A stretch of 64,000 nt of DNA from an uncultured Clostridia bacterium (GTDB lineage: Bacteria > Bacillota > Clostridia > Oscillospirales > Ruminococcaceae), in the NCBI GenBank assembly GCA_947627455.1, contig CANQWC010000002.1, positions 1 through 64,000 on the forward strand, in the 5' to 3' direction. The notes below the pieces were generated by a model. It saw only the letters and a program-made list of their open reading frames with translations, did not search any database and was not told the origin of the DNA. Positions within the stretch are counted from its first letter, which is position 1. Each line of letters starts with the position of its first letter. Below, piece after piece: positions 9,560-58,850 of this stretch. The position numbers and the translations under genes are program-made.

Positions 9560-9905
9560 TTACAAGGTATTCGGCTTACGCCTCATACTATCTTTACCGC
9601 TCCGCACATGCGGAAAGCGCAAGCAAAAGCGCACAAAATATCCATCAGGCCTGCTCTTTATCCCAACCGCATGTGCGTCGCTATCACCCCACCCCCCACC
9701 AAATCTTGCGAAGAAGTAAAACTTTGCTCTGCCCCCGCCCCTCAAGGGGCGGGGGATCGCGGTTTTTGTCCAAGAGGACGAGCCGCCAAACCGAAACGGC
9801 GACGAAGTCCGATTGGCTGCAAAAACCAGCTTTCATTCCCCTCTAGGGGAGGGGGCTGGGGGAGAGGTGTCTAAAAATAGCACGAGCGAAGCGAATACCT
9901 TATAA
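9560..9905. repeat. TTATAAGGTA element, copy C, carrying a nested GA-hairpin element
   Basis: Bounded by TTACAAGGTA and TACCTTATAA. The left hairpin reads (toward the end) ATGA-GGC-gtaa-GCC-GAAT, the right ACGA-GC-gaa-GC-GAAT. The interior contains CGCACATGCG/CGCATGTGCG and the palindrome CCCCTCAAGGGG, directly after which an 80-base GA-hairpin element is inserted. Confidence 0.8.
9757..9836 (+). repeat. GA-hairpin element, nested in copy C
   Basis: Stems CCAA/TTGG, GGAC/GTCC and GCCGCC/GGCGAC (one mismatch) with the GA/GA and GA/GAA internal loops and a 10-base loop. The outer arm CGGTTTTTGT pairs with GCAAAAACC. It ends TTTCAT. Confidence 0.8.
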
Positions 9906-9961: not shown

Positions 9962-10017
9962 ATGAACGCTGGGCTTTGTCTGCGAGCACGAGTGCCCAAT
10001 CCGAAACGGACACAAGC
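9962..10017 (+). repeat. GA-hairpin element, 3'-truncated
   Basis: Has the complete 5' half (arm ATGAACGCTGGG, stems CTGC, GCAC, GTGCCC) and the first 3' strand GGACAC, then breaks off. It is preceded by an imperfect GGAGACCGC/GCGGGCTCC hairpin, as other copies are. Confidence 0.65.
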
Positions 10018-10070
10018 GCTCCGCTCTCCCAAGTTACCCCGCTCTGCGGAGACCGCGTAAGCGGGCTCCC

Positions 10071-10154
10071 ATGAACGCTGGGCTTTGTCTGCGAGCACGA
10101 GTGCCCAACCCGAAACGGGCACGAAGTGCGAGCAGCAACAAAACCAGCTTTCAT
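10071..10154 (+). repeat. GA-hairpin element, best full copy (84 bp)
   Basis: Outer stem GCTGG..TTTGT/ACAAAACCAGC, a 2-base CA bulge, P2 CTGC/GCAG, GA opposite GA, P3 GCAC/GTGC, GA opposite GAA, P4 GTGCCC/GGGCAC and loop AACCCGAAAC. It begins ATGAA and ends TTCAT. It lies 81 bases upstream of the degV start codon. Confidence 0.85.
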
Positions 10155-11717: not shown

Positions 11718-11829
11718 GGAGTTATTTCCTGACGATTAAGTATGATATGGCAATCTGCGGGGCTCTAAAAAGGGCCCCGCAAAGTGTTGTAAGGCTTTGG
11801 AAGAAGAGGCGGAGCTTGCGATACCGTAA

Positions 11830-11894
11830 TTAAAACTCTTTGAGCACGAGCAATCAATTGTTCACGATTGCGAAGTGCGAAAAGCAAGTTTTAA
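11830..11894 (+). repeat. GA-hairpin element, TTAAAACT-arm type, copy 1
   Basis: Same inner architecture as the 84-bp element but with outer arms TTAAAACT/AGTTTTAA: P2 CTTT/AAAG, GA/GA, P3 GCAC/GTGC, GA/GAA, P4 GCAATC/GATTGC, loop AATTGTTCAC, CA bulge. Confidence 0.85.
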
Positions 11895-11984
11895 CGCTTC
11901 GTTTAGCGTCTACGCACCAAAAAATCCCGCAGGAAACGGGATAAGACGGGCACAACGGCGCAAGCCGTAGTGCCAACGACGCGA

Positions 11985-12049
11985 TTAAAACTCTTTGAGG
12001 GCGAGCAATCAATACTAAACGATTGCGAAGCCCGAAAAGGAAGTTTTAA
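11985..12049 (+). repeat. GA-hairpin element, TTAAAACT-arm type, copy 2
   Basis: P2 CTTT/AAAG, P3 GGGC/GCCC, P4 GCAATC/GATTGC, loop AATACTAAAC, bulge GA. P3 differs from copy 1 on both strands, so pairing is kept. A decayed tRNA T-arm sequence (GGTGACAGGACTTGTAACC) follows at 12060-12078. Confidence 0.85.
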
Positions 12050-12083
12050 CGCTTCGTTTGGTGACAGGACTTGTAACCTCAAT

Positions 12084-12163
12084 GGAAGCGCTATTTCTTG
12101 CCGCTCGCACTTCGCGGGCGTGAACTATTGCCCGCTCGTGCTTGCGGAGAAATAGCCGCGTCC
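12084..12163 (-). repeat. GA-hairpin element, CTATTTCT-arm type
   Basis: Read on the minus strand: outer arms GGCTATTTCT/AGAAATAGCGC, P2 CCGC/GCGG, AA opposite GA, P3 GCAC/GTGC, GA/GAA, P4 GCGGGC/GCCCGC, loop AATAGTTCAC, bulge CA. A third outer-arm and P2 combination for the same fold. Confidence 0.8.
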
Positions 12164-12199
12164 ATGCAATCCAAAGCGCCCGTACTTTAGCTCTGCTTG

Positions 12200-12436: not shown

Positions 12437-12520
12437 TGGTGCGGGTGACAGGACTTGAACCTGCACGGGGGTGCCACCAGAACCTAAATCTGACGCGTCT
12501 GCCAATTCCGCCACACCCGC
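12437..12520 (-). tRNA. tRNA-Leu (anticodon UAG)
   Basis: 84 bases including an encoded CCA. Acceptor GCGGGTG pairs with CACCCGC, the anticodon stem CAGA/TCTG encloses TTTAGGT (anticodon TAG, reads CUA), a long class II variable arm is formed by TGGCACCCCCGTGCA, and the T arm has GGTTCAAGTCC. Discriminator A. Confidence 0.96.
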
Positions 12521-23522: not shown

Positions 23523-23584
23523 ACTCTCCCGCCTTTCACTAAAGTCGGTTATATTATATCGCGATAGGGGGAGGAAGTCAATAT

Positions 23585-23664
23585 TGAAAGCTGGTTTTGT
23601 TTCTGCTCGCACTTCGTGCCCGTTTGGGTTTGGGCACTCGTGCTCGCAGACAAAGCCCGATGTC
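23585..23664 (-). repeat. GA-hairpin element
   Basis: Minus strand: P2 CTGC/GCAG, GA/GA, P3 GCAC/GTGC, GA/GAA, P4 GTGCCC/GGGCAC, loop AAACCCAAAC, bulge AA, inner part of the outer arm GCTTTGT/ACAAAAC. It abuts the next copy head to tail. Confidence 0.8.
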
Positions 23665-23666
23665 CA

Positions 23667-23750
23667 ATGAAAGACGGTTTTTGTAGCCAATCGGACTTCG
23701 CGGGCATGAACGCCCGCCCGCTCGTCCTCTTGGACAAAAACCGCGTTCAT
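23667..23750 (-). repeat. GA-hairpin element, full 84 bp
   Basis: Minus strand: ATGAACGCGGTTTTTGT arm, P2 CCAA/TTGG, P3 GGAC/GTCC, P4 GCGGGC/GCCCGC, 10-base loop GGGCGTTCAT, CT bulge. It is followed by the perfect hairpin GGAGCCCGCC/GGCGGGCTCC (23752-23774) that accompanies several copies. Confidence 0.85.
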
Positions 23751-31215: not shown

Positions 31216-31299
31216 ATGAAAGACGGTTTTTGTAACCAATCGGACTTCGCAATCGTGAACGATTGATTGCTCGTCCTCTTGGGCAAAAACCGCGTTCAT
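31216..31299 (-). repeat. GA-hairpin element next to parS
   Basis: Full 84-bp copy (minus strand): P2 CCAA/TTGG, P3 GGAC/GTCC, P4 GCAATC/GATTGC, loop AATCGTTCAC, TT bulge. It starts 9 bases from the parS palindrome and is followed by the hairpin GGAGCCCGC/GCGGGCTCC. Confidence 0.85.
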
Positions 31300-35584: not shown

Positions 35585-35636
35585 ATTATAAGGTATACCC
35601 GCGAAGTCCGATTGGCTACAAAAACCAGTATTCATT
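35585..35636. repeat. Hybrid of a TTATAAGGTA end and a GA-hairpin 3' half
   Basis: TTATAAGGTATACCCGCGA (left end of the first family) runs straight into AGTCCGATTGGCTACAAAAACC...ATTCAT (3' half of the second). The two share CGCGA at the join. It ends at the mnmE stop codon. Confidence 0.65.
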
Positions 35637-51222: not shown

Positions 51223-51716
51223 TTATAAGGTACTCGCTCCGCTCGTGCTATCTTTACCGCTCCGCACATGCGATATGTGCGCTCAGCGGCTTTAAAAAAG
51301 TATCCCCTGACACGCTGCTCTATATATTAAACGCATGTGCTCCGCTATCACCCCACCCCCAGCATACATCGCTATGAAGTAAATCTTATCTCTATCCCCC
51401 GCCCCTCGAGGGGAATGAAAGCTGGTTTTTGCAGCCAATCGGACTTCGCCGCCGTCACGAATTGGCGGCTCGTCCTCTTGGGCAAAAACCGCGTTCATGC
51501 CCCCGCCCCATGAGGGGCGGGGGACAGAGCAAAGATTTAATTCAGAGCTAAGGTTTGGCGGGGGCGGGGTGCAAGCGACGCCAAAAACATTGAAATATAG
51601 GCCACATTTGCCAGCGTCGCTGCGAGCCCGCCTACGGCGGTCTCCCAAAATGGGCGGAGCGGTAAAAATAGCATACCCCGAGCTCGCGGCAGCGAGGTCG
51701 CGGGTATACCTTATAA
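51223..51716. repeat. TTATAAGGTA element, copy I (494 bp, composite)
   Basis: The longest copy, with both the CGCACATGCG/CGCATGTGC block and the AGCGACGCC/GCGTCGCT block. Left hairpin ACTCGC-tcc-GCTCGT, right end the long TACCCCGAGCTC palindrome. A GA-hairpin element sits between two GC palindromes in the middle. Confidence 0.8.
51415..51498 (-). repeat. GA-hairpin element nested in copy I
   Basis: Full 84 bp, minus strand: P2 CCAA/TTGG, P3 GGAC/GTCC, P4 GCCGCC/GGCGGC, loop AATTCGTGAC, CT bulge, outer arm GGTTTTTGC/GCAAAAACC. Flanked by CCCCTCGAGGGG and CCCCATGAGGGG. Confidence 0.85.
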
Positions 51717-55873: not shown

Positions 55874-55927
55874 GATTTTTAAACTCTTTGTTGCTTAGTT
55901 ATAAGGAGACCGCGTAAGCGGGCTCCC

Positions 55928-56079
55928 ATGAACGCGGTTTTTGTCCAAGAGGACGAGCGAGACACGCGGGATTTTGCCCAAGAGACCGTCCGGTGGACGG
56001 TCGATTGGCAGCAAAATCAGCTTGTCTTATGGGCGTTTATGCCCGCGAAGTCCGATTGGTAACAAAAACCGTCTTTCAT
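55928..56079 (+). repeat. GA-hairpin element with a second one nested in its loop
   Basis: Outer copy: arm ATGAACGCGGTTTTTGT, P2 CCAA/TTGG, P3 GGAC/GTCC, start of P4 GCG/CGC, bulge TA, end TTTCAT. In place of the 10-base loop is a related hairpin: GATTTTGC/GCAAAATC, CCAA/TTGG, GA/GA, GACC/GGTC, GTCC/GGAC, CA bulge. It ends 5 bases from the stop codon of the anti-sigma gene. Confidence 0.75.
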
Positions 56080-56084
56080 TCCAT

Positions 56085-58314: not shown

Positions 58315-58391
58315 CGAGGTGTGGCTCAGTTTGGTAGAGCGCCACGTTCGGGACGTGGAGGCCGCAGGTTCAAGTCCTGTCACCTCGACCA
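58315..58391 (+). tRNA. tRNA-Pro (anticodon CGG)
   Basis: 77 bases including encoded CCA. Acceptor CGAGGTG/CACCTCG, D arm GCTCAGTTTGGTAGAGC, anticodon stem CCACG/CGTGG enclosing TTCGGGA (anticodon CGG, reads CCG), T arm GGTTCAAGTCC. Discriminator A. Confidence 0.96.
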
Positions 58392-58627: not shown

Positions 58628-58667
58628 TTAAATAGCGCTTCCATTGAGGTTACAAGTCCTGTCACCA
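58628..58667 (+). repeat. Fragments of a GA-hairpin arm and a tRNA T arm
   Basis: AAATAGCGCTTCCATTGAGG followed by TTACAAGTCCTGTCACC: the first part equals the outer arm of the element at 12084, the second is a T arm with one added A. The same pair, inverted, is at 12060-12100. Confidence 0.6.
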
Positions 58668-58676
58668 AGCGAAGCG

Positions 58677-58741
58677 TTAAAACTTGCTTTTCGGGCTTCG
58701 CAATCGTTTGGGCTTGATTGCTCGCCCTCAAAGAGTTTTAA
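58677..58741 (-). repeat. GA-hairpin element, TTAAAACT-arm type, copy 3
   Basis: Minus strand: P2 CTTT/AAAG, P3 GGGC/GCCC, P4 GCAATC/GATTGC, loop AAGCCCAAAC, CA bulge. Confidence 0.85.
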
Positions 58742-58748
58742 TCGCGCC

Positions 58749-58850
58749 GCTCGACCACGGCGTCGCAAGCTTCGTATCGCTTGCGGCGCTTTTTTCATGC
58801 TTTGCATTCAAAATCGCCGCTTCACTCGCTCCGCTGCTCCGCTATCGGCC
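58749..58850 (+). repeat. tRNA-trailer repeat, copy 3, with tRNA 3' end
   Basis: CTCGACCACGGCGTCGCAAG: the last bases of tRNA-Pro including CCA, then the terminator hairpin and about 80 bases of the trailer, identical to 58384-58480. No tRNA body precedes it. Confidence 0.75.

Follow-up and report, generated by a model that had tools for sequence, protein, structure and literature searches.

Rickettsia palindromic elements (RPE) and the CGTC REPs are short dispersed palindromes without a transposase of their own, some of which lie in frame within genes or in RNA genes (PMC2229807, PMC3733652). RPE are described as 105-146 bp in length (PMC2229807), and how CGTC REPs move is a question left open (PMC3733652). 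The ERIC, RUP, NEMIS/Correia and YPAL repeats are MITEs, short non-autonomous elements of which some have open frames fused to genes, and all four are described with target duplications (PMC2229807). The REP enzymes recognize single strands via mismatches in the stem (PMC8266576). Our literature search, with most subscription journals outside its reach, found no title or abstract on an 84-nt element, and the probably mobile 84-base DNA element of gut Clostridia analysed here is apparently undescribed.

We examined a 64,000-nt stretch (the window) of the genome of an uncultured Clostridia bacterium (G000), in which the preliminary description had claimed a set of hairpins with one fold and a 10-base loop. 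A descriptor scan of both strands of the 64-kb window for P2(4)-GA-P3(4)-GA-P4(6)-loop-P4'-GAA-P3'-GA-P2', with one outer GA allowed to vary, recovered exactly ten sites and no others. All ten lay within 10 nt of the positions first described and had a 10-nt loop, and the same descriptor found 0 matches in ten first-order shuffles of the window. The uniform fold held in the ten, save that the copy at 12082 has AA for the first GA and that the copy at 9753 has one broken P4 pair.

The ten sites, each found by the descriptor scan and a covariance model, fall into four types. The copy under study is a complete 84-nt B-type copy (10071..10154, + strand; ssDNA fold z -5.21); a second B-type copy (23584..23667, -), with the outer stem TTGG/TCAA, stands back to back with a complete A-type copy (23667..23750, -). 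The other A-type copies are at 9753..9836 (+, outer left arm lost), 31216..31299 (-, tip GCAATC) and 51415..51498 (-). The C-type is represented by a complete copy (11975..12058, +), one with a degraded outer left arm (11820..11903, +) and one with an imperfect outer stem (58668..58751, -), and the D-type by a complete copy (12082..12165, -). The ten scored 85.7-94.8 bits with the covariance model, which was built from them, and G000 matches not used in model building reached up to 96.6 bits. The window also contains the 3' half of an A-type copy (35598..35635, +; by eye), a B-type copy whose 3' half has diverged (9962..10028, +, end approximate; 15.5 bits) and a composite (55923..56084, +; model matches and sequence), in which a second, smaller hairpin lies inside the P4 arm of an A-type copy as a nested insertion. 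Another palindromic repeat occurs around TATAAGGTATTCGGC..GCCGAATACCTTATA (window positions ~1960, 9560, 9890, 31900 and 42390), and GC-rich palindromes (CCCCGCCCCTCnnGGGGCGGGG; GGAGCCCGC..GCGGGCTCC) lie beside many A- and B-type copies; the genome of the window looks rich in hairpin repeats.

The fold first described is only the inner part of a longer hairpin that has a covarying outer stem too; the preliminary description missed the full 84-nt mobile unit, its outer stem, the nesting of copies and the apparent link to tRNA genes. The unit consists of N4 and ACGCG, the hairpin, then GCTT and N4'. From the outside, it is laid out as an N4-A/T-N4' stem, a C.T mismatch, GC(G)/(C)GC, a P1 of 8-9 bp, a 2-nt 3' bulge and P2-P4. 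Our parsing script handled 108 of 132 copies (24 unparsed), of which 98 have a 76-nt core and 10 other core lengths. The outer 4 bp are all Watson-Crick in 91/108 parsed copies, with 14 different N4 among those 91, and the base next to the outer N4 is T in 99% of the same 91. P2-P4 are perfect in 68/89 standard-tip copies, in 24 combinations of 7 P2, 5 P3 and 8 P4 types, so the modules assort. The length stays 84 nt in copies with a rebuilt tip, among those listed, all of which have a 76-nt core. Four copies (L142, G000:C8:52690, L275 and L280) are chimeras with a 5' half of one type and a 3' half of another, from which recombination between copies seems to occur.

The compensatory stem variation claimed at the outset was borne out. 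Among the ten window copies, 17/22 pairs have changed on both sides and 98.2% of cells are paired, against a mean of 68.2% in shuffles (0/500 as good) and 31-42% for slid structures. Among 43 gapless copies, double changes occur in 24/29 pairs, with 302 double-changed, 11 one-sided and 22 unpaired cells, matched by 0/500 shuffles; these cells count sequences rather than independent events, and relatedness remains in the shuffles. The 43 are a selection, narrowed from the 98 copies whose core is 76 nt long to 91 distinct sequences, 68 representatives, 49 aligned copies and finally 43. The 19 left out of the alignment are mostly copies with a rebuilt tip, for which poorer pairing would be expected under the tested structure, and six A-type copies, shifted in register by one, were dropped before the 43.

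Copies are dispersed within one genus. The covariance model (E 0.1) gave 65 matches in G000, and model R1 found copies in 14/25 genus genomes, 1-101 each, with none in the other 11 and matches in 0/16 genomes of other families; G046, outside the 25 searched with R1, had 16 matches with model R3. A search with model R2 over 295 genomes of the order, scoring at most 14 candidates per genome, returned G000, G010 and one weak match in G062, which turned out to be a relative with a short tip. Seven direct pairs of copies abut at 83-85 nt (model matches). At the DegV locus, compared between species with one genome per species, 22 loci from 22 genomes (14 orthologue-like, at least 58% identity) contained clear copies only in G000 (five) and G019 (one). 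Of the 32 loci detected when named genomes were scanned with a pattern, 31 lie in 'Lapin' MAGs of uncultured Clostridia, to judge from these names rabbit-gut genomes, and all 31 have model matches; the remaining locus, in Burkholderiaceae, has none. Plasmid and phage collections searched with copy L050 gave no match, and the three matches that two patterns gave in viral contigs were unconvincing when scored with the model (best 13.1 bits, E 0.15).

Filled and empty versions of the same site were found within genes, whose families were named by Pfam. One site in a relaxase gene is filled in three species, the other 20/23 loci being uninterrupted; the insertion is exactly +84 nt in the one pair measured (L200 vs L220), and the frame is open in 3/3 filled copies. 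For an IS256-like transposase (Transposase_mut), two loci from two species are filled and 12 empty among the loci listed (15 of 16), with 28 added amino acids; both filled genes may be decayed, as they diverge or stop further downstream. For Mob_Pre, two are filled and seven empty among the loci listed (9 of 15). The complete filled one, L051, gains 28 amino acids with an in-frame TGA, and L142, which occupies that site in another MAG, stays open up to the contig end and has halves from different types. Elsewhere, the copy in a cysteine-rich protein gene (L065, PF14194) runs into a TGA stop, and that in a resolvase gene (L158) is out of frame, at ~+83 nt relative to an inferred empty site. In-frame insertion in protein genes, a feature of CGTC REPs and RPE, therefore occurs here, with 6/9 gene copies reading open (relaxase three, IS256-like two and the partly seen L142; a hybrid copy in G401 was left out). 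Since any given frame is open in 20-47 of 68 copies, no special design is required to explain open frames. For the gene copies we also weighed ribosome bypassing or splicing, and dropped the idea because both orientations occur and several frames are simply open. The net gain at the three mobility-gene sites is 84 nt (28 codons) with no repeated flank, the target site duplication of classical MITEs; the joint is not perfectly clean, since at each of the three the base preceding the insertion is not that of the empty copies, and L158 has ~+83 nt.

Taken together, the dispersal of copies, the difference in occupied sites between species, the net +84 nt at three gene sites and a rod-like fold of constant length, with its 10-nt loop and GA/GA and GA/GAA internal loops, kept by Watson-Crick co-changes make it fairly probable that the ten hairpins represent a non-autonomous 84-nt mobile element that keeps a fixed fold as DNA. 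We infer that one strand would fold while single-stranded, in replication or conjugation, and that an enzyme acting in trans would recognize the folded rod through the GA motifs and the base formed by ACGCG/GCTT. The rod would then be joined to a target, often beside or inside another hairpin such as its own tip, a palindromic repeat or a tRNA arm, and copies within genes may persist best where no stop occurs among the 28 added codons.

Several copies do sit within other hairpins. By eye, C-type copies occupy the tips of other copies, of the A-, B- and E-types (C1:103110, C23:33002, C6:85624, C16:38256, C5:27881 and C22:13157), a small form lies inside P4 arms (C11:32161, C17:18866, C11:67869 and window 55923), and E-type copies sit in a palindrome that occurs without them beside C21:7363. 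Also by eye, A- and B-type copies are mostly outside any other visible hairpin, and the three empty gene sites have only weak stems, both of which count against hairpins as targets. Apparent links to tRNA genes were found in the window itself, where the D-type copy is directly followed by a degraded copy of the 3' end of the tRNA-Leu (tag) encoded upstream on the same strand (12437..12520, -), and where a degraded 3'-end copy, 255-275 nt downstream of its tRNA-Pro (cgg; 58315..58391, +), adjoins a C-type copy. At 13/20 hand-picked tRNA-linked loci, the downstream stretch matches the 3' end of its own tRNA above the best of 60 shuffles, by 2 or less in three of the 13 (L165, L303 and L314). Seven 3'-end remnants, of different tRNAs, have GTTAC where the T-loop of the tRNA has GTTC (L161, L176, L183, L189, L056 and window 12060-12080 and 58646-58666). 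In G062, an 83-nt insert lies in the T-loop of a tandem tRNA-Arg copy adjoining an intact one, and an insert of 82 nt is present in a second remnant; by eye, a similar tRNA-Arg is present in G081 and a tRNA-Pro with the D-loop affected in G294.

Relatives were found more widely in the order. A pattern of P2 = CCAA/TTGG with the fixed GA motifs matched 11/394 order genomes, eight of them outside the genus and two of these eight (G031 and G037) without an earlier match to R1; the reversed-pattern control found none in the same 394. In seven of the eight the tips are short (2-4 bp), with loops of 3-5 nt where a tip formed; two G031 copies have a broken P3, and in G053 and G122 P3 begins with A.C. 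The eighth genome, G401, belongs to another family and has a full-length copy (L270) whose flanks are portions of two distinct mobile genes, which may reflect transfer, recombination or misassembly. A tRNA gene lies within 240 nt of 5/9 short-tip loci. Model R3 matched in 10 of 12 genomes, eight of these 10 having been chosen as already positive. In G031, three short-tip hairpins 145 nt apart (L304, L308 and L312; G031:C3:16248-16602) are arrayed in tandem next to a Gut-1 match that falls below its threshold. In viral contigs, a third pattern returned five loci: L289, which is like G037, L288 and L291, which lack the fold, and L290 and L292. The last two are short-tip hairpins that share their left flank and lie on one 23-kb phage contig (IMGVR_UViG_2593339255_000003).

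A more tentative proposal, possible rather than probable, is that hairpin parasites form a class spread over the whole order and settle by preference in the loops of other hairpins. They would have occupied tRNA arms first (G062, G081 and G294); an outburst in one gut genus would later have carried them into palindromic repeats, the tips of one another and mobility genes. The folded strand, read by its GA motifs and its fixed length, would serve as both mobile unit and target signal and be moved by an enzyme.

The first alternative to a mobile DNA element is a structured RNA, in which selection acts on a transcript (a leader, small RNA or mRNA stabilizer) and copies spread as a by-product. The strong fold and its covariation are as expected for RNA, some short-tip relatives have the TTCG, GCAA or GTAA loops typical of stable RNA hairpins, several copies lie downstream of tRNA genes and, by eye, 14/20 co-directional copies are in the sense of their neighbours. 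However, selection on a +-strand RNA should give a clear excess of G.T over A.C. In 97 well-paired copies, 2070/2134 cells are Watson-Crick, 20 G.T, 28 A.C and 16 other, although the filter scored G.T but not A.C as paired and so favoured G.T. C.A in P1 makes up 16 of the 28 A.C cells and is probably in part one inherited change that swells the A.C count, so the argument for DNA is only moderate; with P1 excluded, there are 13 G.T and 10 A.C. Nearly all change is from Watson-Crick to Watson-Crick, with G.T not clearly above A.C and few one-sided relative to double-changed cells (11 vs 302), and the data therefore lean towards a DNA fold. The gene context points the same way, as no arrangement is preferred (64/65 G000 copies are intergenic by a simple gene caller: 20 divergent, 20 co-directional, 18 convergent and six at contig ends) and genes are split in both orientations. 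In line with the initial impression that this is no named RNA, no Rfam match covering a copy reached its family threshold over the window and 16 related loci; sub-threshold matches to anti-hemB (22.4 bits, cut-off 49.5) and Gut-1 (46.1 bits, cut-off 50) respectively overlap part of the copy in L152 and lie beside, not over, the short-tip copy in L280. We consider a structured RNA unlikely. Of the early suggestion of selection on structure, as RNA or single-stranded DNA, the structure is supported and the choice leans to DNA. The GA motifs are direct, not inverted, repeats in double-stranded DNA, so a folded single strand would be their simplest reader; this we infer, since both strands fold almost equally well in the energy model (ssDNA energies differing by only 0.2-1.1 kcal/mol in four copies).

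Alternatively, template switching in replication could copy one arm onto the other, with no selection on the fold. The nearly exclusive Watson-Crick changes are consistent with this, and the half-swapped chimeras (L142, C8:52690 and two G031 copies) look like intermediates. Such copying should, however, erase the GA/GA and GA/GAA mismatches, which persist in 81, 84, 85 and 97 of the 97 well-paired copies (four positions, both arms) and recur in other families of the order, where the search pattern required them; the unit also remains 84 nt long even with a rebuilt tip. We regard template switching as an improbable sole source of the fold.

For the mobile-element reading, the profile tests for Y1 transposases and integron integrases in 31 genus genomes indicated no mobilizer. 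A REP family whose RAYT-type Y1 transposase is either still present or lost would account for short, high-copy and mostly intergenic hairpins, and REP enzymes read single strands through stem mismatches (PMC8266576). Y1 matches above 35 bits were found in 6/31 genus genomes, all of them carriers. The preliminary description had called for a co-occurring transposase to be sought, and had recognized no REP class. There is no Y1_Tnp in G000, 7/14 carriers have no Y1 match, and only 2/19 genus Y1 loci have a copy nearby, rather than a Y1 gene flanked by the repeats; by eye, the loci inspected appear to encode ordinary IS200-type tnpA with unrelated ends. The GTAG end tag occurs in 1/68 representatives (first 10 nt) and 0/68 (last 10 nt), in agreement with that first assessment, and a RAYT-driven family is quite unlikely. 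An attC-like site for an integron-type tyrosine recombinase, suggested by the folded single strand with unpaired motifs, the tRNA-linked copies and the lack of an evident target duplication, is highly improbable, as 0/31 genus genomes have an integron integrase above the TIGR02249 cut-off and generic tyrosine recombinases are present in all 31 as they are in all 14 control genomes. The generic recombinases are themselves possible mobilizers.

The 84-nt element offers a natural series of hundreds of copies in more than 12 genomes, with filled and empty sites, for studying how transposase-less palindromic repeats move. It also illustrates that covariation, often taken as a sign of RNA, may here report a DNA fold.

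In fungal mitochondria, double-hairpin elements and GC clusters are likewise mobile hairpins found in loops and spacers, but they belong to other genomes and have other sequences. REP/BIME sequences with RAYT (TnpA-REP) are alike in being mostly intergenic hairpins with conserved stem mismatches, but REPs are 20-50 nt long and carry a GTAG tag, whereas the element is 84 nt, untagged and present in carriers of which half lack Y1. Bacterial MITEs differ in that the 84-nt unit has no evident target duplication and is, as a whole, one covarying hairpin. RPE and CGTC REPs share the dispersed short palindrome, the lack of a dedicated transposase and in-frame gene copies, and differ from the element in its 84-nt constant length, its GA-loop fold and its occurrence in Clostridia; among 68 representatives, the CGTC tag occurs in one (first 10 nt) and five (last 10 nt), and its complement, GACG, at the 5' end of 17. 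The 84-nt element resembles REP, RPE and MITE in the way it works, but lacks whichever of their features was tested, be it the tag, the transposase or the target duplication.
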